Of a stretch of 64,000 nucleotides of DNA, positions 1-25,718 are shown one piece after another; position 1 is the stretch's first letter, and the number at the start of each line of letters is the position of its first letter. The DNA comes from a virus: positions 124,001 through 188,000 of the IMG/VR virus record IMGVR_UViG_3300024308_000018, one strand, 5' to 3'. The translations under genes and the position numbers were made by a program. Below the pieces are notes generated by a model. It made no database searches. It worked only from the letters and a program-made list of their open reading frames with translations, and was not told the origin of the DNA.

Positions 1-31
1 TAGTGCCCCGTTTCATTGGAGAGCGCTACAC

Positions 32-1662: not shown

Positions 1663-1673
1663 GGAGATATACC

Positions 1674-4241: not shown

Positions 4242-4243
4242 TT

Positions 4244-4260
4244 CTGTAAACGATAATTGT
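4244..4260 (+). promoter_or_regulatory. CTGTAAAY motif copy (putative phage promoter or regulatory site)
   Basis: CTGTAAACGATAATTGT lies in the gap after the 855-aa gene, 58 bases before the ATG at 4302. It matches the copies at 4973 and 5586 at 14 or more of 17 positions and is flanked upstream by AATT. A GC-rich hairpin begins two bases downstream. No clear -35 box is present, so a phage-specific factor is a reasonable inference. Confidence 0.55.
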
Positions 4261-4261
4261 A

Positions 4262-4287
4262 GGGGCCGCAGTTTGGCCCCTTCTACT
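4262..4287 (+). terminator. Hairpin with pyrimidine tail, terminator-like
   Basis: GGGGCC (4262-4267) pairs with GGCCCC (4275-4280) around a 7-base loop, followed by TTCTACT. It sits directly after the motif at 4244. It could end the acidic-protein transcript, or form the 5' end of the next transcript if the motif is a promoter. Confidence 0.55.
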
Positions 4288-4301
4288 CCGAGGACAAATC
4301 A

Positions 4302-4856
4302 ATGCAACGTATTTCCCAAGTTGGTGCCATGATGGCAAACTTCGGCGAGCTGCTGACTACTATGTCGCACGCTGTTGAAGACGAAATAAACACCGCGATT
4401 CGCGACGAACAGGCGAGCGCCGCTGAACAGCTGAAGCGCACGGTTGACGACGCCAACGCCAAGATCACGAACCTCAATGCGACGAACGAGTCGCTGTCTA
4501 CGCAACTGCTGCGCAGCAACCAGCAACTCAAGGTTGCAGCCGACAAGCTGGCCGAGCTGGAAACCGAAGTCCTGCCGCTGGCTGCCATCGACGCCGACGA
4601 CGTGTTCGACAAGCTGGAAGAGCTGGACTTGGTTGTCGGCAAGCCTAACGGCGCTGGCGTGAAAGAGTCGCGCGAGCTTATCCAGAAAGTGTGCCGTGAC
4701 CTTGAACCGTTGCGTGCACGTTGCTCCCAAGAAACCCCGGCCCCGAAGCCTGCACCGAAACTTGCAGACGTTGCTGAAGCCGTGGGGAAAGCAAGCGGCG
4801 CTGCGGTCGCTAATGTAGAGGGCAACGCCGAGCCCGAGATGCCCGTCAAAGCGTAA
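4302..4856 (+). CDS. Coiled-coil protein, 184 aa
   Basis: No family recognised. Residues about 20-95 form a long heptad-rich helix (AEQLKRTVDDANAKITNL, then LSTQLLRSNQQLKVAADKLAEL), so the protein probably oligomerises. The tail from about 140 is rich in Ala, Pro and Glu (PAPKPAPK) and likely disordered. GAGGA at 4290-4294 precedes the ATG by 7 bases. Its stop overlaps a short membrane-peptide gene (TAATG). Confidence 0.8.
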   Translation: MQRISQVGAMMANFGELLTTMSHAVEDEINTAIRDEQASAAEQLKRTVDDANAKITNLNATNESLSTQLLRSNQQLKVAADKLAELETEVLPLAAIDADDVFDKLEELDLVVGKPNGAGVKESRELIQKVCRDLEPLRARCSQETPAPKPAPKLADVAEAVGKASGAAVANVEGNAEPEMPVKA

Positions 4857-4963
4857 TGGGCAATCAGCAAGTTTTATCATCATCGTTCGCAAAAGGTTTC
4901 GCGCTGAGCATTCTAATTCTTACGGCGCTGACTTCTGCACTGTCACTGGCTGCCCTAGCCTGA
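4856..4963 (+). CDS. Small hydrophobic peptide, 35 aa
   Basis: The frame begins at an ATG that overlaps the TAA of the previous gene (TAATG), a pattern of translational coupling. After a polar start with one Lys (MGNQQVLSSSFAK) the rest is a continuous hydrophobic helix (about residues 15-35) ending at Ala, so it could be a single-pass membrane peptide or resemble a signal anchor. No homologue comes to mind. It lies before the motif at 4973. The call rests only on coupling and the membrane pattern. Confidence 0.45.
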   Translation: MGNQQVLSSSFAKGFALSILILTALTSALSLAALA

Positions 4964-4972
4964 CACCGAATT

Positions 4973-4989
4973 CTGTAAATAGTAATTGT
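4973..4989 (+). promoter_or_regulatory. CTGTAAAY motif copy
   Basis: CTGTAAATAGTAATTGT, preceded by AATT, lies 50 bases before the ATG at 5023. It matches the copies at 4244 and 5586 almost throughout. No hairpin follows here, which argues that the motif does not only belong to terminators. Confidence 0.55.
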
Positions 4990-5022
4990 TAGTCCAACTC
5001 ACAACCCCGAAAGGAATATCGT

Positions 5023-5562
5023 ATGGCTATCGCCCCTAAGAAGAAGCAAGTTCGTTCTGACCTGATCCCTACCCGTACCAGCCGCCTGCACAACAAGAGC
5101 AGCGTTGCCGTCGGTGCTGCGGTCGCCAAGTTGTTTACCGTGCTGGTCACCTGCCGCAAGCCCGAGCAGTTTGCCGCCGTGCTGCTGAGCGACGATGACA
5201 ACAGCATCATGGTGCGCCGCAAGAAAGGCTACGGCTCTTCCAAGGTTCTGGAAGTGATGATCAGCAAGAGCGACGTTCTGGAAATCACAGGCGCTGGCGT
5301 CGGCCACGAAGCGATCATCCGCGCTGTCGGCCAAGTGCCCGAGCTGAAGCTGCCGCACCAGAAGGTCAAGAACGTTGCAGGCTGGTTGATCTGTACCGAC
5401 GCCGAGACTGGCGAGCAGACCCGCATCAACACCCGCGCCCAAGGCGTTGAAGTTTCTGTCGTCGGTGAAGACGTCAAAGAAGGCTCCGGTAAAGCCGCCC
5501 CGAAGACTGCCAAGAAAACTGGCAACGTCTCCAAGCTGCCGTCCCGCAAGCGCGAAGTGTAA
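5023..5562 (+). CDS. Basic hypothetical protein, 179 aa
   Basis: No family recognised. The N-terminus is lysine-rich (MAIAPKKKQVRSD) and the last 40 residues are Lys/Ala-rich, with a compact predicted domain between. The positive charge suggests nucleic-acid or acidic-partner binding, which is inference. Codon bias is strong, as in the neighbours. AAGGA at 5011-5015 precedes the ATG at 5023. It lies between two highly acidic proteins, and could pair with them. Confidence 0.8.
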   Translation: MAIAPKKKQVRSDLIPTRTSRLHNKSSVAVGAAVAKLFTVLVTCRKPEQFAAVLLSDDDNSIMVRRKKGYGSSKVLEVMISKSDVLEITGAGVGHEAIIRAVGQVPELKLPHQKVKNVAGWLICTDAETGEQTRINTRAQGVEVSVVGEDVKEGSGKAAPKTAKKTGNVSKLPSRKREV

Positions 5563-5585
5563 GGCTACACTCCGTCCGCAAAAAT

Positions 5586-5626
5586 CTGTAAACAATAATT
5601 GTTGGGAGCGCTGAGCACGGTGCTCC
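5586..5626 (+). promoter_or_regulatory. CTGTAAAY motif copy followed by inverted repeat
   Basis: CTGTAAACAATAATTGT (5586-5602) is the cleanest copy of the motif. Two bases later an inverted repeat begins, with GGAGC (5605-5609) facing GCTCC (5622-5626) and an inner GAGCA/TGCTC alternative. No T-run follows, so the repeat may be an operator or an mRNA leader structure rather than a terminator. Confidence 0.55.
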
Positions 5627-5635
5627 AGAATAAAA

Positions 5636-5652
5636 CTGTAAACAACACAAGT
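5636..5652 (+). promoter_or_regulatory. Second CTGTAAAY motif copy in the same gap
   Basis: CTGTAAACAACACAAGT lies 50 bases after the first copy and 55 bases before the ATG at 5691. The first nine bases match the consensus exactly and the right half is degenerate. Two copies in one gap suggest tandem promoters or a binding array. Confidence 0.45.
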
Positions 5653-5690
5653 AGGCAACACCGCCTCGTATCTATAAGGGAATTTCAGTC

Positions 5691-6488
5691 ATGGCTAAAG
5701 CTAAAACCGCAACCACCAAAACCTCCGCTAAGTCCAACAAAGCCGCTGCTGCTCCGGTGAACGCCGCAACTACTCTGCTGCATACCCTGTGCCAGTCTCT
5801 GGCTGCTGCCATTAGCGAAGACCCGAAGATCGCCAAGTTGGCTGATTCCTACGGTCTGGGTTTGGTCGGTGAGGTAGCCGACAACGAGGAAGAGGAAGAA
5901 CTCGAAGAAGAAGACGAAGAGTTCGAAGAAGAGGACGAGGAAGAAGAAGCTCCGAAGTCCAAGAAAGCCGCTTCCAAGAAAGCTCCCGCCAAAGGCGGCA
6001 AGAAAAAGAAAGCGCTGACCGCTGACGACATCATCGAAATTCTGGACGGCGACGACGCCGACGCTGCCGAGGCCGCATTCAACGATCTGGAAGACGAAGA
6101 CATGATCCGCGAGATCGCCGTCACCCTGAAGCTGGTCAAGGCCAAGGCCGCTGCCAAGACCGACGCCGACACCCTGACCGAGATGATCGGTGAGCACTTC
6201 GGCATCGGTGAAGAGGAAGAGGACGAAGAAGAAGAAGGCATCGACCCGGACGAGATGTCCGAAGCCGAACTGCTCGAATTCGTTATCGAGCACAAGCTGG
6301 CCACCAAGGTCAAAGCCAAGAAGATGGACGAGGACGAACTTCGCGCCCTCGTTGAAGAATTCCTCGAAGAAGAAGAAGAGGAAGACGAAGACGAGGAAGA
6401 GGAAGAGGAAGACGAAGAAGAGTTCGACGACGAAGAAGAGGAAGAAGAAGACGAAGACGAATTCGACGACGAGTTCGACGAAGAATAA
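5691..6488 (+). CDS. Extremely acidic protein, 265 aa
   Basis: No enzyme family recognised. A Lys/Ala-rich N-terminus (residues 1-25) and a short helical region are followed by an acidic run (about 65-87), a basic patch (about 88-106, rich in Lys and Ala), a helical middle, and a C-terminal third that is nearly all Glu/Asp. This layout recalls acidic histone chaperones such as nucleoplasmin-like tails, by composition only. The next gene encodes a histone-H1-like basic protein. Codons are strongly biased towards high expression. AAGGG at 5676-5680 precedes the ATG. Two CTGTAAAY motifs lie upstream. Confidence 0.8.
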   Translation: MAKAKTATTKTSAKSNKAAAAPVNAATTLLHTLCQSLAAAISEDPKIAKLADSYGLGLVGEVADNEEEEELEEEDEEFEEEDEEEEAPKSKKAASKKAPAKGGKKKKALTADDIIEILDGDDADAAEAAFNDLEDEDMIREIAVTLKLVKAKAAAKTDADTLTEMIGEHFGIGEEEEDEEEEGIDPDEMSEAELLEFVIEHKLATKVKAKKMDEDELRALVEEFLEEEEEEDEDEEEEEEDEEEFDDEEEEEEDEDEFDDEFDEE

Positions 6489-6517
6489 TCTTCCTCCGGT
6501 CTGAAAAGTTTTCCAAT

Positions 6518-6555
6518 CCGAAAACAGTAATTGATGGGGCGGCAAGTTCCGCCCC
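6518..6555 (+). promoter_or_regulatory. Variant of the CTGTAAAY motif followed by a hairpin
   Basis: CCGAAAACAGTAATTGA (6518-6534) matches the motif consensus at about 14 of 17 positions. The hairpin GGGGCGG (6536-6542)/CCGCCCC (6549-6555) begins two bases later, the same layout as at 4244-4280. It precedes the H1-like gene by about 60-80 bases. Confidence 0.45.
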
Positions 6556-6596
6556 AACTTAACCCCCCCAAGCATTTAATTCTCAAGGAGCCTATC

Positions 6597-7115
6597 ATGG
6601 CTAAGACTACCGTTGTTGAAACCGCCCAGCTGTCCGCCCTTCAGAAAACTCTGAAGTCCCTGAAGTCCCAGCACGCCAAGGCCCAGAAGCAGCACGACAG
6701 CTCTGTCGCTGCCCAGACCAAAGCTCAGGAAATTTCCTCCCAGTCGCTGGCTGCGCAGGAACAAAGCATCGCTGAACTGGAAGCCCAGCTGCTGGCCGCC
6801 AAGTCCGGCGAAGCTGCTCCGGCACCTGCTGCCAAGAAAGCTCCGGCCAAAGCCGCAGCCGCCAAGCCTGCCGCTGGCAAGAAAGCTCCGGCCAAAGCCG
6901 AGAAGCCTGCCGCTGGCAAGAAAGCTCCGGCCAAAGCTCCGGCCAAAGCCGAGAAGCCTGCTACCAAGAAAGCCCCGGCCAAACCCGCCAAAGCTGAAAA
7001 GCCTGCTGCCAAGCCTGCTGGCAAGAAAGCTCCGGCCAAAGCTGCAAAAGCCGCTCCGGCCAAGAAAGGTAAAGGCAAGGGCAAAGGCGACGACCTCGAA
7101 TTCGATCTGGGTTAA
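6597..7115 (+). CDS. Histone H1-like Lys/Ala/Pro-repeat protein, 172 aa
   Basis: The ATG at 6597 is preferred over an upstream in-frame ATG at 6531 because AAGGAG (6585-6590) precedes it and the upstream start lies in the hairpin. Residues 1-70 form a coiled-coil-like helix (LQKTLKSLKSQHAKAQKQ). From about 75 to 160 the protein is built of KKAPAK, KPAA and AEKPA repeats, like the C-terminal tails of histone H1 and bacterial AlgP/H1-like proteins. Such tails bind and compact DNA. The extreme C-terminus is acidic (GDDLEFDLG) and resembles short partner-binding tails. A role in condensing phage or host DNA is inferred from composition. Its acidic neighbour at 5691 may act as its chaperone. Confidence 0.8.
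   Translation: MAKTTVVETAQLSALQKTLKSLKSQHAKAQKQHDSSVAAQTKAQEISSQSLAAQEQSIAELEAQLLAAKSGEAAPAPAAKKAPAKAAAAKPAAGKKAPAKAEKPAAGKKAPAKAPAKAEKPATKKAPAKPAKAEKPAAKPAGKKAPAKAAKAAPAKKGKGKGKGDDLEFDLG
6820..7065 (+). repeat. Imperfect coding repeats (AAKKAPAK type)
   Basis: GGCAAGAAAGCTCCGGCCAA and close variants recur in tandem inside the H1-like gene, encoding KKAPAK/KPAAG units. The DNA identity of the units suggests growth by slippage or unequal exchange. Confidence 0.75.
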
Positions 7116-7157
7116 TCACCGCCGCGCAATGCCAGAGGAATAAACATCCTCGGATCA

Positions 7158-7184
7158 GGGGAGCAACGTTGCTCCCCTTTTTCT
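7158..7184 (+). terminator. Rho-independent terminator
   Basis: The perfect 20-base inverted repeat GGGGAGCAACGTTGCTCCCC (7158-7177) is followed by TTTTTCT. It closes the highly expressed block. Confidence 0.85.
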
Positions 7185-7216
7185 ATTCTCTGCCTCACAA
7201 AACGGACTTCGCGAAC

Positions 7217-7747
7217 ATGGCCCTGCACCTTGAACTTCTTCATTCCACGTTGGATGCCGCAATCAACGCCCGGCGCACTCTCGAAACTCTCGATGTATCT
7301 TCTGCAATAAGCGGCGTCGCCAAATCCAACTGCGCACTCGCCAAGAATATCGACAAGCATATCACCGATGGGTCTGCCCATTCTCTGCTTGGTGCTCTCT
7401 TTCTCGTAAGCGATGCGGAAGCCGTAGAAGTGGCGGCTGGTCAGCTCCGCATTAGCGATCTGCCGCAACGCCATGCAGACGTTGCAGTCCATGCGGTGCA
7501 TACCGCCAAGATGCGTAACACATACACTCGCGCTGAAGGTATACGCTGGCTCGCTGAAACCCTGTGCGACATCCCCAGCGTCGACATGTTGCAAGCGTTC
7601 AACAAGGATCAGCTGATCGCACTGCGTGACCTGATCGGGTTTGCCTCAGTCTCTGGTATCGCAGACGATCCGAAAGCCAGCGTGTCCAGCGTGGCTGATT
7701 CCCTCAAGGCGCTGCGCTACCAAGAAGGCGAGCACGACCACGACTGA
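7217..7747 (+). CDS. Hypothetical protein, 176 aa
   Basis: No family recognised. A TTG at 7169 is in frame but lies inside the preceding terminator stem, so the ATG at 7217 is preferred, although no strong ribosome site precedes it. The protein is mainly alpha-helical (ALHLELLHSTLDAAINAR) with a His/Asp-rich end (GEHDHD). No membrane segment or catalytic motif is visible. Confidence 0.65.
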   Translation: MALHLELLHSTLDAAINARRTLETLDVSSAISGVAKSNCALAKNIDKHITDGSAHSLLGALFLVSDAEAVEVAAGQLRISDLPQRHADVAVHAVHTAKMRNTYTRAEGIRWLAETLCDIPSVDMLQAFNKDQLIALRDLIGFASVSGIADDPKASVSSVADSLKALRYQEGEHDHD

Positions 7748-7770
7748 CGAAAACCGGACTAGGTTTCTAG

Positions 7771-7794
7771 CACGTCAGTTGGTATAATAAGTGC
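7771..7794 (+). promoter_or_regulatory. Host sigma70-type promoter with extended -10
   Basis: TGGTATAAT (the -10 TATAAT is at 7783-7788) gives a perfect -10 with the TGn extension. No good TTGACA is seen 17 bases upstream, as is usual for extended -10 promoters. It lies 33 bases before the gene at 7821 and would drive the topoisomerase operon early from host RNA polymerase. Confidence 0.6.
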
Positions 7795-7820
7795 ATGGGG
7801 ACAATCACGGGTAACTGACA

Positions 7821-8195
7821 ATGAAAGCTGAGATCACGAATGTCTACACGGACTTTGACGCGCTGATGCAACAAGTCAACGCATCGCTGTTCCGACTCTA
7901 CGCTGTGCGATCCACGGACGGCTTGAATACGCCGCTCGGGTTCGTTGTTGTGTACGCCGACCTTAATCAGGCAACTGGCTTCTCGCTGCGCGTGACAATG
8001 TGTCGCGCTATCGGGCAAACCATCGAGCTTGTTTCACAGGCTCCGCTCCCGCTGCTGTCACTGTACGTCGACATCAAGCGGCAGGTTGAGGAATGGGATG
8101 GCACGCTCGCCACCTATCCACTCGCCCCTATTGCAGAAGATGACGCCAGCGACTATTACGGCGAACTCGAAACACCAGAGGATGAACTGACATGA
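7821..8195 (+). CDS. Hypothetical protein, 124 aa
   Basis: No family recognised. The protein looks like a small alpha/beta domain (LGFVVVYADLNQATGFSLRVTM) with an acidic C-terminal tail from about residue 100. It is the first gene after the extended -10 promoter and overlaps the topoisomerase B subunit by 4 bases (ATGA), so it is co-translated with it. A role linked to topoisomerase is possible from context only. Confidence 0.75.
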   Translation: MKAEITNVYTDFDALMQQVNASLFRLYAVRSTDGLNTPLGFVVVYADLNQATGFSLRVTMCRAIGQTIELVSQAPLPLLSLYVDIKRQVEEWDGTLATYPLAPIAEDDASDYYGELETPEDELT

Positions 8196-10228
8196 GCAAA
8201 GCGCCAGTAAAGACGCGCGTCGCCAAAGCCGTGAGCAAGGCCAGTACGCAAGAGGCCAAAGACTTTCAGATCAAGGAAGGCGTCGCGGGCATTCAGGCTA
8301 AGCCGACAATGTACCTTGGCGAACTCGGCCCGCAGATGGCTTACCGCTGCGTCAAGGAAGAAGTGGACAACGCGTTAGATGAAGCGTTGGCCGGACGTAA
8401 CAAGTGGATCGAAGTCTACTACGATTACGACGAGTCGATCACAATCGTGGCGGACAAGGCTGGTGGTATCCCAGTCGAAATGAAAACGCGTGAGAACGGT
8501 GACAAGATTTCGATCCTCACCGCTGCATTCACTATCACGCACGCGGGCGGCAAGTTCGAAGACAGCGCCTACAAAGTTTCGACAGGTACACACGGCGTCG
8601 GTGTCACTGCGGTGAACGCCGTCAGTGAATGGCTGGAAGTGTGGAGTAAGCGCAAGGGCAAAATCTATCACCAGCGCTTTGAGCTGGGCCGACCCGTGAA
8701 ACCGGATCCGGTAGTGGTCGCCAGTCTCCCGAAAAACGTTGCTGCGTTGCTGACGTCGAAGGACTACGGCACTGTGGTAATGAACAAGTTGAATCAGTCC
8801 ATCGTCAGCGAAGACGCGTCGAAGGGCAAGCTGCCGAAAAACTTCCGGCCCGCCAATCCCGAGTACAAGCAACTCGGCAACTGGCTGAAGTCGATCTCGG
8901 ATCTGAACCCCGGCCTGAACATCGTGCTCACTGCGAAGAAGGGCGCGAAGTCGAAGACCGTCAGCTTCCTGAACAAGCTGAGTCACGCGGAATTCCTCAA
9001 GCAACACGTCGCCGACATTCTGGGCGAAGAGGAAGACGCGAAGTTCAAGCCGTTCATCTTGCAGACCGACTACGTGACGGCGCTTCTGCAATGGACAACG
9101 CTGCCCAACGTGCAACTGCGTTCCTCTGCGAACAACTCGCCGACCGCGAACGGTGGTACTCACGTCCGTGGTTTGATCGACGCGCTGGTCGAGGCCGTCA
9201 AGCCTTACGAAAACAGCAAGCACTTAGACAAGAAGAAACGCAAGTACGCGTCTGAGGATCTGCTGTTCGGTCTGGTCGGCTTCTTCGACTGGCGGATGCA
9301 CGGCGCTGCATTCGACTCGCAAGTCAAAGACAAGCTGGTATCCAAAGTCCAGAACGAAGTCAAAGACGCGGTACTGCCTGAGCTGGTCAAACACTTCGCT
9401 GCCAACAAAGCGCTGCCCAAGTTCATCTTGGATCGTGCGGTGCAGGTAGAGACCGGACGTCTCGCAATGTCCAAGTCGTTGTCTGCGATGGCCGACGCCA
9501 AGCGCGCAACCAAGGGCGGGGCACTGCCGCAATGTCTGGATGCAGCAAGCACCAAGGACAACACCCTGCGCGAACTCTTCTTGGTGGAAGGGGACTCGGC
9601 GGGCGGTACTGCGAAGAACGCGCGCAACCCGGTCACGCAAGAAGTGTTCAAGGCGAGCGGTAAACCAGCCAACGCGCTGAACGCTCCGCTGGACAAAGTG
9701 ATCGGTAACCCCGTGGTCGGCAACTTCCTGATCTCGCTCGGCGTTGACTTCAAAGCATTCGATGCCCAAGTGAAAGCACGTGTGCCGAACCCGACATTCC
9801 CAGTGGACAAGCTGCGCGTCCAGCGCATCTACTTCCTCGCGGACGCGGACGTCGACGGCTATCACATCAACAGTCTGTTCCTCGCGATCATCTGGAAGCT
9901 GCTGCCTGACCTGCTCTATCAGGGCCGCGTCTATGTTGTGGACGCTCCGCTGTATAACGTCATGCACAAGAAGAAGCATTACGGTGGTGCCACCAAACAA
10001 GAACTGTTGCAGAACGCGCCATCTACTGTGAAGCCGTCTGACGTTACGCGCGCCAAAGGTTGGGGTGAAGTGTCGCCCGAGATCATGGAAGCCATCGCGT
10101 TCGACCCGTCTATCCGTCGCGTTATTCGCATTCAGCCGTTCGCCAAGCAGGAAAGTTTGGCGTGGTACAATCGAGTGCTCGGGGACGACGCCAGCGCACG
10201 CCGCCAACTGCTCGGCCTGTCCAGCTAA
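8192..10228 (+). CDS. DNA topoisomerase II, ATPase/Toprim subunit (GyrB/ParE-like)
   Basis: This is the ATP-binding subunit of a phage type II topoisomerase. The GHKL ATPase signatures are present: EEVDNALDEA (general base Glu56, Mg-binding Asn60), DKAGGIP (Asp88), and TGTHGVGVTAVNA (131-143). The transducer domain follows, then the Toprim domain with EGDSAGG (about 464-470) and the metal-binding DADVDG (about 550-555). At 678 aa it is shorter than E. coli GyrB (804 aa). It overlaps the upstream gene by 4 bases and lies 9 bases before the A subunit gene. The pair corresponds to phage T4 gp39/gp60 plus gp52, needed for replication. Confidence 0.95.
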   Translation: MSKAPVKTRVAKAVSKASTQEAKDFQIKEGVAGIQAKPTMYLGELGPQMAYRCVKEEVDNALDEALAGRNKWIEVYYDYDESITIVADKAGGIPVEMKTRENGDKISILTAAFTITHAGGKFEDSAYKVSTGTHGVGVTAVNAVSEWLEVWSKRKGKIYHQRFELGRPVKPDPVVVASLPKNVAALLTSKDYGTVVMNKLNQSIVSEDASKGKLPKNFRPANPEYKQLGNWLKSISDLNPGLNIVLTAKKGAKSKTVSFLNKLSHAEFLKQHVADILGEEEDAKFKPFILQTDYVTALLQWTTLPNVQLRSSANNSPTANGGTHVRGLIDALVEAVKPYENSKHLDKKKRKYASEDLLFGLVGFFDWRMHGAAFDSQVKDKLVSKVQNEVKDAVLPELVKHFAANKALPKFILDRAVQVETGRLAMSKSLSAMADAKRATKGGALPQCLDAASTKDNTLRELFLVEGDSAGGTAKNARNPVTQEVFKASGKPANALNAPLDKVIGNPVVGNFLISLGVDFKAFDAQVKARVPNPTFPVDKLRVQRIYFLADADVDGYHINSLFLAIIWKLLPDLLYQGRVYVVDAPLYNVMHKKKHYGGATKQELLQNAPSTVKPSDVTRAKGWGEVSPEIMEAIAFDPSIRRVIRIQPFAKQESLAWYNRVLGDDASARRQLLGLSS

Positions 10229-10237
10229 GGAACATGT

Positions 10238-11911
10238 ATGACAACTAAGAGAGTGGTGCGCCGACCCAAGGCCACCAAAGCTGCGAAGTCGACAGCGACC
10301 GAGATAGAATCCGGCACGCTGGTGAAAAAGCGCAAGCCTCTGCGAGCCAAGGCCACGGCAGCAACAGGCGAGCGCGAGGTCGGCACCGAAGCCCAGCTGA
10401 AGATGTCGCTGACTCCGACCGTCGACACGTACATCGAAGACAAGGAACTGCATGAATACACCGACCGCGCACTGTTCGAGTACGGTTCGTATGTCGTGCA
10501 AGACCGTGCGGTTCCCGAACTGCGCGATGGCCTGAAGCCGTCACACCGCGCGATGTTGTGGTCGGCCGTTGAACTTGGCCTGAGCCCCAGCGGTAGCTTT
10601 GCGAAGTCAGCCAAGGTTGTCGGCCATGCAATCGGTTCGTATCACCCGCACGGTGACGTCGCGTGTTATGATGCGGGTGTGTCTATCGCAAACTTCAACC
10701 CGCCTCTGCTGTGGGGCTCCGGTAACTTCGGCTCCCCAGTTGACGCACCCGCCGCGATGCGTTATTCGGAAATGAAGTTGTCACGCTTCAGCCAACTGTT
10801 CATGGCTGACAGCGGATACCTCAAGGCCGTGCCGTATCACCAGAACTTTTCTGAGGATAAGAAGTGGCCCGTCTACATGCCTGCGCTGCTGCCTATGCTG
10901 CTGCTCGCTGGCAACCCGACGATTCCGGCCTACGGTGTACGCTCCGGTAACCCCAGCTTTGAACTTGCTGGCGTTGCCCAGCTGACAATCGCGGCGTTGC
11001 GTGGTCGCAAGATCACAGCCAACGACATGATCAAGCGGCTGGTGGTGCAGCACCCCTACGGCGCTGTATGTGTTGCCGACGACGAGCAATTCGAGACCCT
11101 TATCTCGACCGGACGCGGCTCACTGCCGTTCCATCCGCAGATGATGGCCGACTACAAGCGCAAGCTGATCGTGTTGCAGAGCTACAGCCCACAAGTGTTG
11201 TCGAATGCCGTGTCCGTCGAGAAGACGATTCGTGCAATCGCCGACATGAAGGGCGTGTCGCAAGTGATGTCGTCCGGCGGCAAGAAGAACCCCGACGCGG
11301 GCACCTATGGTTGCGCCATCGCAATCACTGTTGGCCGTGGCGTTGGGGAAGACGAGTTCTACACTCTGGTGCAAGCTATCCGCAAGCGCCTGACCAAGAA
11401 CGAGTCGTACCAGCTCGGCGTCACGATACGCAAGCTGGGGGAGAAGTCGAAGTTCAGCCACTGCGACTTCCCTGCGTTCATCAACAACTGGGCCAAGTAT
11501 CGGATCTCGTTGGAGGTGGACTACCTGAACTACTTCAAGCAGCAAGCGCTCGACGCGCTCCACGTTGTGAACGGTAAACTTGTGGTTGTCGCAACCAAGG
11601 ATTCCCTTGACCGCGCTATTCACATCATCCGCACCGCGAAGGATCCGAAAGCCGCGCTGATGAAAGAGTTCAAGTTGGATGAAGTCCAAGTCGAAGCCAT
11701 CCTGAGCATGCAGCTCCGGTCGCTTGCAAAGTTGGTGCTCGACGAGCTGAAGAATATCAAAGCCAAGCTGGTCGCGGAGATCAAGGACTACGACCGTCGC
11801 CTGAAAGAACCCGGCCAGTCAGCCGCCGTGGACTTGAAGGAGCGACTGAAGAAGTACCTTGCCAAGCCAGACATGACTGTAAGCGGATTGCCTGTCTACA
11901 CGAAGGAATAA
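10238..11911 (+). CDS. DNA topoisomerase II, cleavage subunit (GyrA/ParC-like)
   Basis: This is the DNA-cleaving partner of the subunit encoded just upstream. Characteristic text includes YVVQDRAVPELRDGLKPSHRAMLW (split over residues 85-108), GSYHPHGD (133-140) and AAMRYSE with the expected catalytic Tyr176 next to Arg175. A basic tail of about 50 residues precedes the core. The protein ends after the coiled-coil region at 557 aa and lacks the C-terminal beta-pinwheel of GyrA (about 875 aa), so by family knowledge it should relax or decatenate rather than supercoil. AAGGA precedes the ATG. Confidence 0.95.
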   Translation: MTTKRVVRRPKATKAAKSTATEIESGTLVKKRKPLRAKATAATGEREVGTEAQLKMSLTPTVDTYIEDKELHEYTDRALFEYGSYVVQDRAVPELRDGLKPSHRAMLWSAVELGLSPSGSFAKSAKVVGHAIGSYHPHGDVACYDAGVSIANFNPPLLWGSGNFGSPVDAPAAMRYSEMKLSRFSQLFMADSGYLKAVPYHQNFSEDKKWPVYMPALLPMLLLAGNPTIPAYGVRSGNPSFELAGVAQLTIAALRGRKITANDMIKRLVVQHPYGAVCVADDEQFETLISTGRGSLPFHPQMMADYKRKLIVLQSYSPQVLSNAVSVEKTIRAIADMKGVSQVMSSGGKKNPDAGTYGCAIAITVGRGVGEDEFYTLVQAIRKRLTKNESYQLGVTIRKLGEKSKFSHCDFPAFINNWAKYRISLEVDYLNYFKQQALDALHVVNGKLVVVATKDSLDRAIHIIRTAKDPKAALMKEFKLDEVQVEAILSMQLRSLAKLVLDELKNIKAKLVAEIKDYDRRLKEPGQSAAVDLKERLKKYLAKPDMTVSGLPVYTKE

Positions 11912-11914
11912 AAT

Positions 11915-11931
11915 CTGTAAACAGTAGTTTG
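11915..11931 (+). promoter_or_regulatory. CTGTAAAY motif copy after the topoisomerase operon
   Basis: CTGTAAACAGTAGTTTG, preceded by AAAT, lies right after the topoisomerase A stop codon. It again abuts a hairpin. The next gene starts 115 bases downstream of the motif. Confidence 0.5.
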
Positions 11932-11962
11932 AGAGGGTGGAGTTATTCACCCTCTCCCTTCT
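11931..11962 (+). terminator. Terminator-like hairpin
   Basis: GAGAGGGTG (11931-11939) pairs with CACCCTCTC (11948-11956) around an 8-base loop, followed by CCTTCTCG. The remaining gap to 12045 holds a weaker imperfect GGGATAC/GTATTCCC pair and the ribosome site AAAGGAAAG. Confidence 0.6.
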
Positions 11963-12045
11963 CGTCTCGGGATACTAATTTCGTATTCCCCTGACGCCGC
12001 CCACTTGGGCACTACGTGTAACCACGTCCATAAAGGAAAGACCCG

Positions 12046-13470
12046 ATGTCTCTATCGCTGATGCAGAAGAACCTGACTCATGCTCACCAAGTCCTGAGCA
12101 ACGGTCTGGTGTCTCTGCGCACCTCGAACAAACCCAGCCAGATCGCCCTGACAATCAACGGGGCCACTGCTGCGGCCACCGCTGATTTGCGGGCAGCGCC
12201 GAAGCAGTCTGTTGCAGTGATTACCGACCTTGCGGACGCGCGTGCTGTGCTCGACACAGTGAACAAGCGCCTGACCAGCCTCGCCAAAGTTGTGGCTGCT
12301 CGCAAGATTGCATTCGCTGACTATCGCAAAGAATGCAACTCACTCTCCGCCATGTTGGAAGGTGTCGAGTTGCAGCTGACCAACGCGCGCAACCTCATTG
12401 TCAAAGCTGAGACCGTGCGTGATGGAACAGCACCCGCCGAATCGATCACAACACCTGCATTCCTTGCTGCCCTGATCTCGACCGACTCCAAGGTTGAAAT
12501 CAAAGAGCTGACCAAGCGCTGGTTCGCTGGCCTGCCCCGCTCTGAGGCCGACCAGTATGCCCGCCGTCGCGGCCCGCTCGTTGACCAGCTGCTGTCCTAC
12601 ACGGATTCCGCCACGGCTCGCCTCGTACTGGAAACCGTCAGCGGCGCTCTGCTCAACACCGCCGACGACGCGGCCAAGCGCCAAGACACTGAAAGCGTCG
12701 TGCGTGCCACCCAAGCCGTGGAACTCACCCGCAAGCTCGAACGCGAATATGGCCCGAAGCTGAGTGCCCTGAACATCCGCCCCAACGGCATCAAGATGAT
12801 CAGCCTGCCCCTGCGCGTGACGTTCGCCCATCGCAGCATTCGCCCAGACACGCTGGCGAAGAACGGCATGAAGGCCCAGCCCTTCTCCTACGAGAAATTC
12901 AACAACGGGACTTTCATCGTCGAAGACCAATCGCTGATCGTAATGCGCCGCTCTGACGCAGAAGCATTCCATCGCGAATCCCAAAATGAGGCGCGGCGTT
13001 CGAACAGCGACCTCAAGATGCTCAAGAACCTCAAAGCCAGCTTGAAGAAAGTTGACACCGAGATTGCTGAGTTGACTGCCGCCAGTACGCAGCAGAAGAG
13101 CCAACGCGCACGCGTTGCAATCGCTGACCAACTGGCTGACCTGCGCGCTCGTTCCGACGAGTTGCAGAAGTCCATTACTACGGTGCAAGAAGGTGCGGAG
13201 GCAGCCAAGAAGCTGATCTCCAACAAGCACAAGCAAGCAAAGAAATCCTCTGACGAGATGGTGCGCGCGTATGCGGATCACATTCTCGACCTAGCCAACT
13301 CGAAGCTCTCCGTGGAATACGCGAAAGTTTCGGGCAAGCTGCTGCACAAGGTCAAGAACGTCGACTACGTGTATATGTGGGTCGCACCCAAGCACTACGT
13401 CCGAGCACTGCACGCGCTCTCCGGTGGTAACGGGGATCTTGTGACCAGCTGGACGCTCGCTTGGGCGTAA
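12046..13470 (+). CDS. Coiled-coil hypothetical protein, 474 aa
   Basis: No family recognised. Helical segments dominate. A coiled-coil region at about 300-420 (LKMLKNLKASLKKVDTEIAEL) is flanked by a beta-containing part at about 240-300. The C-terminus is aromatic (VDYVYMWVAPKHYVRAL). The protein is moderately basic. It follows the motif-hairpin unit at 11915 and stands between topoisomerase and replication genes, so a DNA-associated or structural role is possible. AAAGGAAAG precedes the ATG. Confidence 0.75.
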   Translation: MSLSLMQKNLTHAHQVLSNGLVSLRTSNKPSQIALTINGATAAATADLRAAPKQSVAVITDLADARAVLDTVNKRLTSLAKVVAARKIAFADYRKECNSLSAMLEGVELQLTNARNLIVKAETVRDGTAPAESITTPAFLAALISTDSKVEIKELTKRWFAGLPRSEADQYARRRGPLVDQLLSYTDSATARLVLETVSGALLNTADDAAKRQDTESVVRATQAVELTRKLEREYGPKLSALNIRPNGIKMISLPLRVTFAHRSIRPDTLAKNGMKAQPFSYEKFNNGTFIVEDQSLIVMRRSDAEAFHRESQNEARRSNSDLKMLKNLKASLKKVDTEIAELTAASTQQKSQRARVAIADQLADLRARSDELQKSITTVQEGAEAAKKLISNKHKQAKKSSDEMVRAYADHILDLANSKLSVEYAKVSGKLLHKVKNVDYVYMWVAPKHYVRALHALSGGNGDLVTSWTLAWA

Positions 13471-13474
13471 CCAC

Positions 13475-14834: not shown

Positions 14835-14857
14835 CTTCAATCTTGAGAGCCTACACA

Positions 14858-15973
14858 ATGCGTAACGACCTGCACACTTTGATCGCCGCCAACGAACTCG
14901 ACGTCAACTCTCCGATTTTCGAAGAGGTGATTCTCTACCTACTGCGAGCCTACGGCAACCCGATCAAGGTGTACCATCAACGTTTTGCGAAAGCCTGCTC
15001 GTTCCATAGTGAACTGACTCCGGCGCGTTTCCGTACTGAACTGCACGACACTGAATACGTTGGTGTCGCGCTGAAATTCTTTGCCGGGTACGCGGCCCTC
15101 AAGTACGGCAAGGTGACTAACCGCCACCTTGTCGCGACTGCCCCCAAGTACGGCGTCAGCAAGTGCGACGCCAAGCGCGTGATTGCGATGTTCGGCCAGC
15201 GTCAGTACCTCAATGCGGTTCGCTCCCGCTTGACTGCTGAAGGCTTCACAGCCGAAAGCCTCGACCTCAATGCGTACCGTGATGCACTGCAACTCGGACA
15301 CACTGTTATCGTTGGCCTCACCGACTCCATCGCCAAGCACGTGAACCGCAACCTGCGCTGGGTGGCGAAAGCCCACAACTGCCGGACTGCGGATCTGAAC
15401 ACTGAGATCACGGCGCAAGTGATCTCTGTCTACTACGGCATGCTGCCGACACACAAGAGTGACGACCACGTGCAGAACTATCTGTGCAGCGCCCTGCATA
15501 GCCGCATCAAGAACCTCGCCAACTACCACTCCGCTGAGAAGCGCAAGCGGCAGGTGAAGGTGACTGAGAACGGCGAAGTGCGGTACAGCCTGATTGAGGC
15601 GAGCGAATCGCACCTCAACAAGTTCAGCTCTGGCAGTGACTCCGCTGTGTCTATCGAAGAGATGGGAGGATGCGACGATTCGCTTGAGCTTCACAATTTC
15701 GAATTCACACGCTCGGTCGATTCGCTGTTCAAGATCGCGAAGTGCAAACCCAAACGCTTTGCCCTCTACAGCGTATTGCTCGGTCGGAATGTTCCGGCCT
15801 TCGCAGAGTTCCTGCGACAAAAACGACTGCTCCGCTCTGAAACCAAAACAGTGCGCGAGTGGTTGATTGATAAGCCTGTGGCATATCTGGCTGATGTCCT
15901 CGGTAAATGGCTCGGGGTCTCCCCCGCCCACGTCCAGAAGGGCATGACTGAAATGGCGATGATTCTCCTATGA
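14858..15973 (+). CDS. Possible RNA polymerase sigma-factor-like protein, 371 aa
   Basis: The ATG at 14858 has GAGAG seven bases upstream and is preferred to an in-frame TTG at 14843. The middle (about residues 155-230) reads like sigma70 region 2: a helix with DLNTEITAQVISVYYGMLP, then QNYLCSALHSRIKNLANY and a basic end (AEKRKRQ). The last 30 residues (LGKWLGVSPAHVQKGMTEM) resemble the helix-turn-helix of sigma region 4. Sequence likeness is weak and judged by eye. If correct, it could direct host polymerase to phage promoters, perhaps the CTGTAAAY motif. Alternatives are a helix-turn-helix replication protein or an unrelated helical protein. Confidence 0.4.
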   Translation: MRNDLHTLIAANELDVNSPIFEEVILYLLRAYGNPIKVYHQRFAKACSFHSELTPARFRTELHDTEYVGVALKFFAGYAALKYGKVTNRHLVATAPKYGVSKCDAKRVIAMFGQRQYLNAVRSRLTAEGFTAESLDLNAYRDALQLGHTVIVGLTDSIAKHVNRNLRWVAKAHNCRTADLNTEITAQVISVYYGMLPTHKSDDHVQNYLCSALHSRIKNLANYHSAEKRKRQVKVTENGEVRYSLIEASESHLNKFSSGSDSAVSIEEMGGCDDSLELHNFEFTRSVDSLFKIAKCKPKRFALYSVLLGRNVPAFAEFLRQKRLLRSETKTVREWLIDKPVAYLADVLGKWLGVSPAHVQKGMTEMAMILL

Positions 15974-16311: not shown

Positions 16312-16319
16312 GTGGATCG

Positions 16320-18495: not shown

Positions 18496-18504
18496 GGGCA
18501 ATTC

Positions 18505-21663: not shown

Positions 21664-21908
21664 CGAACAAGTTCAACAACCCAGCTGCAAATGTGCTGGC
21701 GGCGCGACAGGCGAAAGCCCAAGGGGTCGACATCGATCCGCGCACTACCGACAGCAACATGTTGTCGCAGTCGGCGCTCCACGTGGAGAGTGTGACCAAC
21801 TGCCCGAAGTGCGGTAATGCAACTACCTCCGCATCGTTGGCTGGCGGAATCCCCGCCCGCTTCTGCCCTGACTGTTCGGTGACAATGCCTGTCCCGATGG
21901 GGGAGTAA
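21660..21908 (+). CDS. Small zinc-ribbon protein, 82 aa
   Basis: Two Cys pairs, CPKC (about residues 48-51) and CPDC (about 69-72), form a typical zinc ribbon in the C-terminal half. The N-terminal half is polar and helical. AAGGAG precedes the ATG, which overlaps the terminase stop (ATGA). The portal gene follows after 3 bases. It is therefore co-expressed with the packaging genes. The terminase also carries CPIC/CPKC pairs. The exact role is unknown. Confidence 0.7.
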   Translation: MTNKFNNPAANVLAARQAKAQGVDIDPRTTDSNMLSQSALHVESVTNCPKCGNATTSASLAGGIPARFCPDCSVTMPVPMGE

Positions 21909-21911
21909 GGC

Positions 21912-23822
21912 ATGGGAATCTCATTCAAGGCACAGAGCGATTTCAGAAATCGCGGCCCTGCGCCTGAATCGGGTGGTAAGCGGCAAGTTGGTGTGGCGTC
22001 TAGCGATGCCGCACTCAACAAGCTGGTGAAGACGATGCGCAACCGTGCGCGGCATGAGCAGTACAGTGAGCGCGTTGCGTCCACTTCTGCCGCTGGTGCT
22101 GGCTCCGGTAGCGCAATCGGCAATACCCAATTCGGCGCAGTGGCACTGGACATCGACGTTGATCCGTTGCTCGAAGGCATGGCCTACGACACGGATGACA
22201 AGTTCCTCTTCAACATCTACCGCGACATCTACAACTTCGATCCCATCGGCGGGTCGTTCGTAGACATGTTCAGCACGCTGCCTTATTCGGACTACACGTT
22301 CGGCGGGGCCAAGGATGCGTTGCTCGAACCGTACTACGAAACAAACGAGCGCCTGAAGATCGGAAGCATGCTTCCGGCAATCACTACCGACCGGATGGTG
22401 ACTGGTGCTCACGTGTCGTCGATGCTGTATAACAAGCAGCAGAAGAAATTCCTCGACCTCATGTGCCACCGTTACGATCACATCGACGTGTATCCCCTGC
22501 CGTTCAACAACCAAGACCCGATCTTGGAGTGGAACGTGCCGGAAGAAACGCGCACCGTGATGCAGCGCGACAACGATCGGATCAAACGCCTGCGCGAGTA
22601 CATCGGCAGTGATCTGTGCGCCAAAATCGACGGCGGCGAGAAGATTGAACTCGACCCGCTCGGCACAATCTGGCTGCCCCGTCGCCCGTACAGTACAGGC
22701 GCAGGCCAATCTGTGTACCGTCGCATCCTGCCCGTGTGGCTGATCGAGAAGAACCTGTACCGTGGCACGCTGATAGAAAGTGGTCGCCGCCAACGTGGTA
22801 TCCTTCACGCTCAACTCGGCGACGGGATGGAGTGGGAGCCCAGCGTTGAGGAACTGCAATACGTGACCGACTTGCTGTTGGCTGCGGATGCGGATCCCAT
22901 TGGTGCGGTAATCGCAACTCGCATGGGCGTGCAGGTGAACGAGTTCCGTCAAGGCGGCGACTTCTGGAAGATCACCGACATCTGGGACACCACCACGCAG
23001 TACAAACTGCGTGCGCTTGGTGCCAGTGAAGCCTTGCTGTCGGGCGACGCTACGTTTGCCAACGGCGAAACCGGAATGATGGCGTTTATGGAGAGCCTTG
23101 CGGCTTCCCGTAATGACCTGACCCGCCGCCTGTTCTACGAGAAGATCTTCCCGCTGGTTGCCGTTATCAACGGGCTGGCCGTGAACCGTAGTGGCAACGT
23201 GGTCAAGAAGTCTGGCATGATGAAGGGAGATGCGATGGACATCATGGAGCGCATGCAAGACGGCTCCAAGTTGTTTATCCCGACCGTGCATTGGACGAAG
23301 AAGCTGCGTCCGGAAAGCGATCAAGGTCAGATGGAAGCGCTGCGTGCGCTGACCGAAATGGGCGTACCTGTTCCGATCCGTGCTATTGCGGCGGCTGGCG
23401 GATACAGTCTGGATCAAATGGTTGGTGACCAAGATGAAAACTTGGCTATGCAGCGTAAGATCTACGACTACCAAAAGCGCAACGCCGAGCTGAAGAAGAA
23501 GTACGGGCCGAAAGAGGAAGGCGAAGAGGGCGGCGGTTCGTTCTCAAGCGCCGATCCGTTCGGTGGTGTACTCGGCGGCCAGCGGCGTCTCTCACTGAAA
23601 GACCGCGACTTCGGCCACCTCAGTGAGATGCACGAATACGGGAAGACGGGCAAGAAGAAATACCTGTTTGACCAACGTGCCGCCAACGACCGAGCCAACA
23701 ACGCGATCTACAAATCTGTAAAGACCATAGACAAGCAGGGAGCTAACCCTCTGCTGTCTAATGCTGCTGTTTCCCGCAAGGCAAGTCCGCGTGAGCAGCG
23801 TGCAATGCTCCGTCTGTATTGA
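21912..23822 (+). CDS. Portal protein, 636 aa
   Basis: The portal dodecamer forms the DNA entry and exit channel at one capsid vertex. The call rests on position after terminase, on length, and on portal-like text such as NFDPIGGSFVDMFSTLPYSDYTFGG near residues 105-130 and the core from about 180 to 500, where helical segments such as LRALGASEALLSGDATFANGE (about 370-390) match the common portal pattern for LGVSEALLxG. The C-terminal 100 residues are charged and likely disordered. The pattern CTGTAAAG occurs near the 3' end at 23716. No frameshift is seen. Confidence 0.85.
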   Translation: MGISFKAQSDFRNRGPAPESGGKRQVGVASSDAALNKLVKTMRNRARHEQYSERVASTSAAGAGSGSAIGNTQFGAVALDIDVDPLLEGMAYDTDDKFLFNIYRDIYNFDPIGGSFVDMFSTLPYSDYTFGGAKDALLEPYYETNERLKIGSMLPAITTDRMVTGAHVSSMLYNKQQKKFLDLMCHRYDHIDVYPLPFNNQDPILEWNVPEETRTVMQRDNDRIKRLREYIGSDLCAKIDGGEKIELDPLGTIWLPRRPYSTGAGQSVYRRILPVWLIEKNLYRGTLIESGRRQRGILHAQLGDGMEWEPSVEELQYVTDLLLAADADPIGAVIATRMGVQVNEFRQGGDFWKITDIWDTTTQYKLRALGASEALLSGDATFANGETGMMAFMESLAASRNDLTRRLFYEKIFPLVAVINGLAVNRSGNVVKKSGMMKGDAMDIMERMQDGSKLFIPTVHWTKKLRPESDQGQMEALRALTEMGVPVPIRAIAAAGGYSLDQMVGDQDENLAMQRKIYDYQKRNAELKKKYGPKEEGEEGGGSFSSADPFGGVLGGQRRLSLKDRDFGHLSEMHEYGKTGKKKYLFDQRAANDRANNAIYKSVKTIDKQGANPLLSNAAVSRKASPREQRAMLRLY

Positions 23823-23830
23823 GGGTCGTC

Positions 23831-24457
23831 ATGTTCAAATCATGGTTTAAGAAAGGGGAGCATGACTCCCCACCTTCTCCAACTCTCTCGCTGCTTGCCG
23901 TACTCGCTGACGGGCCGGAAACTCCGGATCCCGAGTGGGAGCAGCTGCGGGGGAGATTCGTGGAAGCGTGCAACTACATCTATCAGGATCGTGGCACTGT
24001 CCATAGCACCTACCACAGCGCGCAACGTAGCATTCACGAATTCGTGGAACGCTACCTGCCGCACTGGTCACTGTCCAGCGACAAGCCTGAACTCGAAACC
24101 GCGTTCGTCTGGGCCATCGCTAAGGTAGTGTCGAGCAATGCGGTTGTGGCTTCCGTGGCGGGAATGCTGATTGACAAGTTCATTGCCAACGGTGCAGTTG
24201 TTGCCGCCCTGCGCACCAAGCTCAACCCTACGGGACTGCGCAAGGTGCTGAACCTTGGGGCATCAAAGTTTAGCGAGATGGAAGCCGCAATCTGCAAGCG
24301 TCAGGGTTTCGACTCTGCCGACGCGTTCGAGTTCCTGAATTTGCAGTTCATGCAACTGCGCCAAGTGAGCTATCTCAGCTGGCACAGCAGCGCCCCCAAG
24401 GAGCTGGCCGACAAGTTCCCCAACGTTGTTGCGTATCGCACTCTGAGAGGTAAGTGA
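23831..24457 (+). CDS. Hypothetical protein, 208 aa
   Basis: No family recognised. The ATG at 23831 is preferred to an in-frame TTG at 23819 because GAGGG at 23821-23825 precedes it. The protein has a Pro-rich N-terminus and helical body (AFVWAIAKVVSSNAVVASVAG is helical and hydrophobic but polar-flanked). It follows the portal gene by 8 bases and overlaps the next gene (TGATG). A head or neck role is possible from position only. Confidence 0.7.
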   Translation: MFKSWFKKGEHDSPPSPTLSLLAVLADGPETPDPEWEQLRGRFVEACNYIYQDRGTVHSTYHSAQRSIHEFVERYLPHWSLSSDKPELETAFVWAIAKVVSSNAVVASVAGMLIDKFIANGAVVAALRTKLNPTGLRKVLNLGASKFSEMEAAICKRQGFDSADAFEFLNLQFMQLRQVSYLSWHSSAPKELADKFPNVVAYRTLRGK

Positions 24458-24822
24458 TGATCTCTCTGACGCGCGGCGCACTGGCCGAGTTCTATCAGCA
24501 GGCAGGAAACCACAACGTCTCTTTCGAGGTCGAGGTTCCTGACTCGCACGTGTTCGTCGGTATCCGCCATCCCATGTACGGGCAGTCTGGCGCTGTGCAA
24601 GGCACGCCGTTCATCGCCCTCATTAACCTGATGGCTCCGGATCCCGCCTCCAAGGTTCTCACCAAGATTGCAGACCTGCATTCAGGTGAAGAAGCTGCCG
24701 CGTTTCTCAAAGTCGTATCGGTCGTCGTGACCTCGCGAGAAGCCCGCAGCGCTCAAGAGTGGGCCGAATACCTTCAGGCCCAAATCGGTAGTAACGTCAA
24801 GGTATCTAACTATGCTGGATAA
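24457..24822 (+). CDS. Hypothetical protein, 121 aa
   Basis: No family recognised. The ATG at 24457 overlaps the previous TGA, and GAGAGG (24445-24450) is its ribosome site. The protein looks like a small alpha/beta domain (NVSFEVEVPDSHVFVGIRH; FLKVVSVVVTS). It overlaps the next gene by 11 bases. Confidence 0.7.
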   Translation: MISLTRGALAEFYQQAGNHNVSFEVEVPDSHVFVGIRHPMYGQSGAVQGTPFIALINLMAPDPASKVLTKIADLHSGEEAAAFLKVVSVVVTSREARSAQEWAEYLQAQIGSNVKVSNYAG

Positions 24823-25138
24823 GGTCGAAACACAAGAGCTTGTCAATCTGCTGGTCACTACAAAGAACATGGCAGATACACACGTAGTCAAGGCACTGGT
24901 CTCCGATGTTCCCCTCAATATCGGAATCGCAATCTCCGAACTCAAGCAAGTGTTTGGTGACAAGGACATCCTCGTCATTACGGACGAGCTGGCCTACGCC
25001 GCCAACGACATCGCTTCTGCTGGGCCGGGGTACAGTGTCGACGGCCCCTCTCGTTTCTACTGCCAACTGCTGATGACCGACAAGGCAGCACTGGCAAAAG
25101 CAATCAACGCAATTATGGTAATGGAGAAATCTGTATGA
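24812..25138 (+). CDS. Hypothetical protein, 108 aa
   Basis: No family recognised. The protein is small, alpha/beta and near neutral, with the segments HVVKALVSDVPLNIGIAI and DILVITDELAYAAND. It overlaps both neighbours (11 bases upstream, 4 bases downstream), so the four genes from 23831 to 25503 form one translational unit. Confidence 0.7.
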   Translation: MLDKVETQELVNLLVTTKNMADTHVVKALVSDVPLNIGIAISELKQVFGDKDILVITDELAYAANDIASAGPGYSVDGPSRFYCQLLMTDKAALAKAINAIMVMEKSV

Positions 25139-25503
25139 TCAAGTCGTCCCTACTCGAAGGTGGTCTGCGTCTGTACGAAGGCAAAGGTACTGGCCTGCAC
25201 TTCGTGTTCACTCCGCTGGGTGAAAACGTGCTCGGCGCCTGCGAGAAGCTGCAAACTTACGCGGCTGGTGAAGAGCAGATGGAGCACGCTGTCGGCATGA
25301 TACTCGGTGACGGCACCGCAGAACTCGGCATCGACTACCCGCAGTGTACCGAAGTCGTCAGCAACTGGGTGGAAGAACTCGGTCTCGAATTCGACGCGGC
25401 CCCGATGGACGTAATCGAGATCAAGGTCGGCAAGGAAGCCGTTGTCGTTATCACGGTCGGGGTCAGTGACCCGTCCGAGACGGCGGACTCTGAGTGGAAC
25501 TAA
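25135..25503 (+). CDS. Hypothetical protein, 122 aa
   Basis: No family recognised. It starts with ATGA overlap and GGAG upstream. The protein is acidic, with beta segments (GLHFVFTPLGENVL, EAVVVITVGVS). Codon bias is stronger than in its three predecessors. A strong terminator follows 14 bases after its stop and closes the packaging/portal transcript. Confidence 0.72.
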   Translation: MIKSSLLEGGLRLYEGKGTGLHFVFTPLGENVLGACEKLQTYAAGEEQMEHAVGMILGDGTAELGIDYPQCTEVVSNWVEELGLEFDAAPMDVIEIKVGKEAVVVITVGVSDPSETADSEWN

Positions 25504-25516
25504 TCCGACCGGATTT

Positions 25517-25541
25517 AAGGGGGCCTTCGGGCCCTCTTTTC
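25517..25541 (+). terminator. Rho-independent terminator
   Basis: A GC stem closed by a TTCG loop (25526-25529), with GGGCC facing GGCCC and a T-rich tail TCTTTTCG. Confidence 0.88.
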
Positions 25542-25604
25542 GTTTCCAGACACGTCACTTGCTGTCTGAACCTGCTCGCGTCTAACTCCGCCGTGTACTG
25601 CGCA

Positions 25605-25718
25605 ATGTACGTAATCAACAACATTGCACGCGAAGAGCGGGAGACGCTGTACGCACAGTTGCCGCCTGAATCTGTAAATAGTCTACGTCGGGCAGTAAAG
25701 CAAATCGAGGGCGTATGA
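25605..25718 (+). CDS. Possible small protein, 37 aa
   Basis: After the terminator a frame with ATG at 25605 (or GTG at 25593) runs to a TGA that overlaps the next ATG (ATGA at 25715). It would encode a helical polar peptide (INNIAREERETLYAQL). No good ribosome site precedes it. The overlap with a real downstream gene is the main support. The rest of the 25504-25714 gap holds the terminator and the motif at 25672. Confidence 0.35.
   Translation: MYVINNIAREERETLYAQLPPESVNSLRRAVKQIEGV
25672..25688 (+). promoter_or_regulatory. CTGTAAAY motif copy, right half degenerate
   Basis: CTGTAAATAGTCTACGT, preceded by GAAT, shares CTGTAAATAGT with the copy at 4973. It lies 43 bases before the ATG at 25715 and downstream of a terminator, where a new promoter would be expected. 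Confidence 0.42.

Follow-up and report, generated by a model that had tools for sequence, protein, structure and literature searches.

A short sequence built on CTGTAAAY recurs upstream of genes in a 64 kb stretch of viral DNA (the window; G000:C1:124001-188000 of the 229,746-base IMG/VR virus record IMGVR_UViG_3300024308_000018), raising the question of whether it marks the points at which transcription starts and, if so, which polymerase reads it. Genes for terminase, portal, topoisomerase II and DnaB place the phage among the RSL1/PaBG/Yoloswag-like jumbo phages, its TerL giving a 46-52% match to those of Yoloswag, Alexandra, Dickeya JA29/JA11 and Yersinia fHe-Yen9-02; the nearest relatives by TerL, G001 (94%) and G002 (57%), are both present as fragments. 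No Rpb1-type phage RNA polymerase domain was found in the genome. The analysis described here indicates that CTGTAAAY is very probably the start signal of DNA-replication genes, read by the host RNA polymerase with a phage-encoded sigma factor. In its full form this reading, which we consider likely, takes AAWCTGTAAAYA as the core of a phage-specific promoter class served by host polymerase and the phage sigma encoded at G000:81067-82101.

The initial annotation of the window described the element as a 17-base pattern, CTGTAAAY(N)RTAATTGT. The copies that it listed, and the core, were borne out: the pattern occurs with no mismatch at 4244, 4973 and 5586 and with three mismatches at 6518 and 11915 (0.54 matches expected in the window; none of 100 shuffles reached five), and the copies at 5636, 25672, 1601 and 23716 also carry the CTGTAAA core. 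The second half, RTAATTGT, did not hold as a general part of the element. Alignment of 26 sites, taken from this genome and the two phages closest to it, with 36 from Enterobacterial relatives gave A A W C T G T A A A Y A, followed on the 3' side by little signal and then by weak T/C at +14 and G/A at +15, i.e. a weak Y-1 R+1 signature at positions 14-15 counted from the C of CTG; TAATTGT is confined to a few strong copies near 4244-5586 and their counterparts in relatives (CTGTAAATAGTAATTGA in three). The conserved unit is AAWCTGTAAAYA, and information content per position of the aligned sites revealed no second conserved block, and no -35-like block, between -45 and +45 of the motif. Sigma70-type promoters (TTGACA / TATAAT, spacing 16-18) are likewise missing from positions 1-13000 of the window (0, against 3.0 in shuffles), in agreement with the earlier observation that no -35 box accompanies the motif. 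The window sites, scored with a weight matrix trained only on relatives, are listed below; class 1 denotes the CTGTAAAY type.

1601-1608, plus strand: predicted class-1 promoter element AAACTGTAAACAA, 20.5 bits, 73 bases before ORF (open reading frame) 1674-4241 and inside the 3' end of ORF 406-1662
4244-4260, plus strand: predicted class-1 promoter element CTGTAAACGATAATTGT, exact match, 17.1 bits, 58 bases before ORF 4302-4856
4973-4989, plus strand: predicted class-1 promoter element CTGTAAATAGTAATTGT, exact match, 21.7 bits, 50 bases before ORF 5023-5562
5586-5602, plus strand: predicted class-1 promoter element CTGTAAACAATAATTGT, exact match, 23.4 bits (the best in the scanned part of the genome), upstream one of two before ORF 5691-6488
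5636-5643, plus strand: predicted class-1 promoter element AAACTGTAAACAA, 20.7 bits, downstream one of the two, 55 bases before ORF 5691-6488
6518-6534, plus strand: predicted weak class-1 element CCGAAAACAGTAATTGA, three mismatches, 11.2 bits, 79 bases before ORF 6597-7115
11915-11922, plus strand: predicted class-1 promoter element AATCTGTAAACAGTAG, 21.1 bits, in the gap that follows the topoisomerase II gene and 131 bases ahead of ORF 12046-13470
23716-23723, plus strand: class-1-like element AATCTGTAAAGA, 15.3 bits, within the 3' end of the portal gene and 115 bases ahead of ORF 23831-24457
25672-25679, plus strand: predicted class-1 promoter element AATCTGTAAATAGT, 21.9 bits, 43 bases before ORF 25715-26155, kept in the 94% relative G001 (L226:6437)

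Most copies lie in gaps between genes, as first described, the exceptions being 1601 and 23716, which fall inside the 3' ends of upstream ORFs. The distance to the start codon, originally put at about 40-75 bases, ranges from 43 to 131 in the window (most often 43-79). The copy at 6518, already called weaker, is in fact the weakest (CCGAAAAC, 11 bits against 15-23 for the others).

The element is strongly enriched, orientated and positioned. In an unbiased count of all 9-mers, which like the weight-matrix scan and the second-motif count below covers 164 kb of the record, CTGTAAACA stands near the top, behind codon-repeat words only, with 15 copies seen against 0.6 expected. Across the whole record there are 19 copies and none of the reversed string, and their strand runs in blocks (minus at 1-70 kb, plus at 72-136 kb, minus at 190-210 kb). 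A weight matrix trained solely on JA29, Yoloswag, Alexandra and fHe-Yen9-02 (cut-off 13 bits) found 26 sites in this genome against 1.6 in shuffles; 18 of the 26 are intergenic although only 9% of the DNA is (p ~2e-13), which answers the comparison of gaps with coding DNA that had been proposed as a check, and 24 of them lie on the strand of the neighbouring gene. The four training phages themselves carry 56 sense and 4 antisense copies. The unrelated Erwinia phage phiEa21-4, which shares the host, shows no excess of the motif (3 seen, 4.6 expected).

Position is also conserved at the same gene starts in phages whose proteins have diverged widely. Five phages have the motif in the gap that follows the topoisomerase II gene (window 11915), where their proteins share only ~24-33% identity (the other copies being JA29 L243:45749-45824, Yoloswag L229:45549, Alexandra L245:45469 and fHe-Yen9-02 L247:39605), and the orthologues of ORF 5023 at L227:7170, L229:37878, L245:38064 and L247:32710 stand directly behind copies of it. 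The dUTPase gene is preceded by the motif in this phage (L220:9128) and in fHe-Yen9-02 (L247:14316), as is the primase gene here (L218:12830) and in PaBG (L246:10853). The strongest footprint belongs to the sigma gene: at all 23 IMG/VR loci of the phage sigma described below, a single-stranded-DNA-binding-protein (SSB) gene lies downstream of it; 21 of these, at sigma identities down to ~32%, have the motif ahead of the SSB gene at the stop codon of sigma (0.34 expected from shuffles), and in the other two a copy stands slightly further on, still before the SSB gene (L280; L288:4346). The sigma loci together carry 57 sense and 3 antisense copies. In this genome (L218:18099) the motif itself provides the sigma stop codon (CTG-TAA-AC), the end of the sigma gene and the predicted SSB promoter sharing bases; similar overlaps are seen in several relatives. 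These relatives were found with an alignment query, whereas single-protein scans of viral contigs with ORF 5023 or this genome's sigma found none. A search of every viral contig for the exact 17-mer brought up for the most part contigs that are unrelated and was not used as evidence; one of its matches, L117, sits on a contig of the relative G002. Taken together, the enrichment, strand, position and conservation tests strongly support the initial proposal of a phage-specific promoter without a -35 box.

Which protein would read such a promoter? The sole detectable sigma factor of the genome lies outside the window, at G000:81067-82101. It is the only Sigma70_r2 match in the genome, aligns with phrog_17569 ('RNA polymerase sigma factor') at E=2.3e-94 over residues 5-345 of 345, and is the orthologue (33-35% identical) of PaBG gp118. 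Region 2 of a sigma factor is responsible for core binding and -10 melting. Sigma70_r2 was matched in 20 of 22 family members (best E=2.4e-6); no region 4 model matched any of the 22 at E<=1, and no clear helix-turn-helix was apparent at the C-terminus of the structure, there predicted with moderate confidence. Among the 50 Foldseek matches listed for this structure there are only sigma70-type or RNA polymerase holoenzyme chains. The phage sequence SYxKWWxLNAxTC aligns to YATWWIRQAIT of RpoD; both the aromatic WW in region 2.3 and the region 2.4 threonine are kept, and an invariant Asn stands in place of sigma70 Gln437. PaBG gp118 has been assigned as an RpoD-like sigma, with no promoter or consensus named (PMC7412058).

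The initial annotation had offered as reader either a modified host polymerase or a sigma-like protein encoded within the window:

14858-15973, plus strand: ORF of phrog_19229, orthologue of PaBG gp112, sigma identity unsupported

This protein has been dropped as the reader, and host polymerase with the phage sigma of G000:81067-82101 is proposed instead. None of 14 members of its family contains a Pfam sigma domain, neither a profile search nor an AlphaFold model compared by Foldseek gave a PDB match under E=1, and profile-profile comparison showed no relation to the sigma profile; PaBG gp112 has itself been called doubtful or uncertain (PMC7412058). The phrog_19229 protein is a conserved orphan beside the DnaB helicase gene across the clade, with an all-helical model (pLDDT 78).

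From these data we infer a promoter role for the motif, its reading by the phrog_17569 sigma, a start site and a timing class. The host RNA polymerase would swap its sigma70 for the phage sigma (phrog_17569; PaBG gp118 family), whose region 2 would melt and read the -10 element; a sigma without detectable region 4 would need no -35 box. TAAAYA would stand in for the -10 hexamer, with the preceding CTG acting like an extended -10, and RNA would start ~6-7 bases downstream of the element, at the mildly conserved Y-1 R+1. Several points weigh against this proposal. The link between motif and sigma is drawn from their co-distribution and from the logic of the argument, rather than from a sigma-negative sister phage; this genome's own sigma scores under the curated Pfam cut-off (19 versus 24 bits); a short or very divergent region 4 may yet be present, given the moderate confidence with which the C-terminus is modelled; and PaBG, a more distant phage, has a degenerate core (TGTAAA, GTGTAAAC, CTGTCAATAA) with lower enrichment.

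Other explanations must account for the same strand bias and placement. Were the motif the site of a phage activator, i.e. an operator resembling a MotA box, with host sigma70 holoenzyme initiating at a downstream -10, its orientation and its position upstream of genes would be just as observed, and the activator of T4 middle promoters does work with host sigma70. Such an arrangement is nevertheless improbable here: no second element is conserved within 45 bases on either side, several copies lie only 35-46 bases before a start codon, too close to accommodate a -10, a start site and a leader, and window 1-13000 is devoid of sigma70-type sites. An effect exerted in the RNA, through leader processing or translational control, would also predict the strand bias and the place before genes. 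We consider this very improbable indeed, as the motif frequently shares bases with the stop codon of the gene ahead of it and precedes the start by 35-130 bases, in no constant relation to the ribosome site; a recurrent 5'-leader hairpin downstream of the motif (4244, 5586, 6518, 11915 and others) was tried and rejected, such hairpins being no commoner (16/56) than in control gaps (27/99).

The motif might also be an extended -10 promoter read by unmodified host sigma70. TGTAAA offers T-12/A-11-like positions, and sigma70 is able to use promoters of the extended -10 kind that have no -35. Promoter tables for pf16/phiPMW, moreover, give TTGACA boxes followed by TGTAAA-type hexamers (PMC5587285). 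The motif differs, however, from TGnTATAAT in spacing and at -7, is not enriched in phiEa21-4, and recurs in Erwinia, Dickeya, Yersinia and (degenerate) Pseudomonas phages in positions tied to the phage sigma gene. Nearby there is also an ordinary extended -10 of the host type:

7780-7788, plus strand: host-type extended -10 TGGTATAAT, read in the sequence, preceding ORF 7821-8195

Reading by unmodified sigma70 is accordingly held to be quite improbable. The site at 7780-7788 puts two promoter types within 3 kb.

The proposed transcription by host polymerase carrying the phage sigma has known counterparts. T4 late promoters (TATAAATA) consist of an 8-base -10-like element alone, used by the gp55 sigma, which has no region 4, on host polymerase. 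TATAAATA is cited as the T4 late promoter sequence (PMC5587285), and TGTAAAYA resembles it; the T4 promoters, however, serve late genes with gp33 and the sliding clamp, whereas here mainly replication genes are involved and no co-activator was identified. The absence of a -35 box together with a sigma lacking detectable region 4 fits the experimentally worked out case of phiEco32 gp36, which has no region 4 and recognises tAATGTAtA as its sole element, RNA starting 6-8 bp downstream (PMC8948821). Its middle/late promoters likewise have one element and no -35 and employ the host core polymerase, as is predicted here, but phiEco32 is a podovirus, its sigma belongs to a different family and its element differs from AAWCTGTAAAYA. 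Phage 7-11 gp47 similarly acts, as proposed here, as a phage sigma on host polymerase at phage-specific promoters; unlike the present case, it keeps region 4 and its promoters are bipartite, GTAAtg-(16)-aCTA (PMC8948821). PaBG gp118 belongs to the same sigma family (phrog_17569), for which a recognition element is proposed here.

In this genome the motif stands before genes for SSB, primase, clamp loader, dUTPase, dCMP deaminase and two acetyltransferases, and before ORFs of no assigned role near the topoisomerase genes. Because it precedes mainly replication and nucleotide genes, these promoters most likely form a middle class. At 9 of the 23 sigma loci, about a third of relatives, a copy also stands 36-48 bases ahead of the sigma gene; this implies positive feedback, by which the phage sigma would drive its own gene in those phages. 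The two acetyltransferase genes behind class-1 elements (L218:16124-17067 and L219:1842-2396) are both of the phrog_3810 type; one gene of this type lies directly upstream of the sigma gene, and in Yoloswag an acetyltransferase gene (L229:9122) has the motif 64 bases before it.

A second motif, CGNTAATTTA, occurs six times against 0.1 expected in this genome, and three times against none in the 94% relative. Its copies are located as follows.

Window 28157, 47435, 48761 and 60562: copies of CGNTAATTTA
Window 29492 and 11974: related copies CGATAATTTG and ACTAATTTC, respectively
L217:15451, L221:12084, L242:37649 and L242:43240, minus strand, and L246:40712, plus strand: sites of the CGNTAATTTA class outside the window

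In Yoloswag CGNTAATTTA precedes the tail-sheath gene (L242:37649), and a variant, CGTTAATTTT, a head-region ATPase gene (L242:43240); the window copies at 48761 and 47435 are inside or far from predicted gene starts. This motif may represent a late promoter class. A three-stage programme for this clade of jumbo phages, which have no RNA polymerase of their own, can be sketched tentatively, and with more doubt than confidence: host sigma70 would serve early genes; the phage sigma lacking region 4 would transcribe middle genes, along with the gene that encodes it, from AAWCTGTAAAYA; and late structural genes would depend on CGNTAATTTA and another phage-specific factor, perhaps the 14858 orphan.

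According to reviews, the sigma factors of jumbo phages that lack an RNA polymerase 'likely' work at phage-specific promoters (PMC13282480), yet the literature searched names no such promoter for this clade, and a search for the motif string found nothing relevant. On the evidence of sequence comparison, the motif would represent a promoter class with good support, belonging to a phage sigma family that is already known but had no named target site in that literature. With a named recognition element, what the sigma does can be tested directly in vitro using E. coli core enzyme in purified form, and the element, found independently in Erwinia, Dickeya, Yersinia and, in degenerate form, Pseudomonas phages, would allow operons, timing classes and regulons to be deduced from the sequences of dozens of genomes already deposited.

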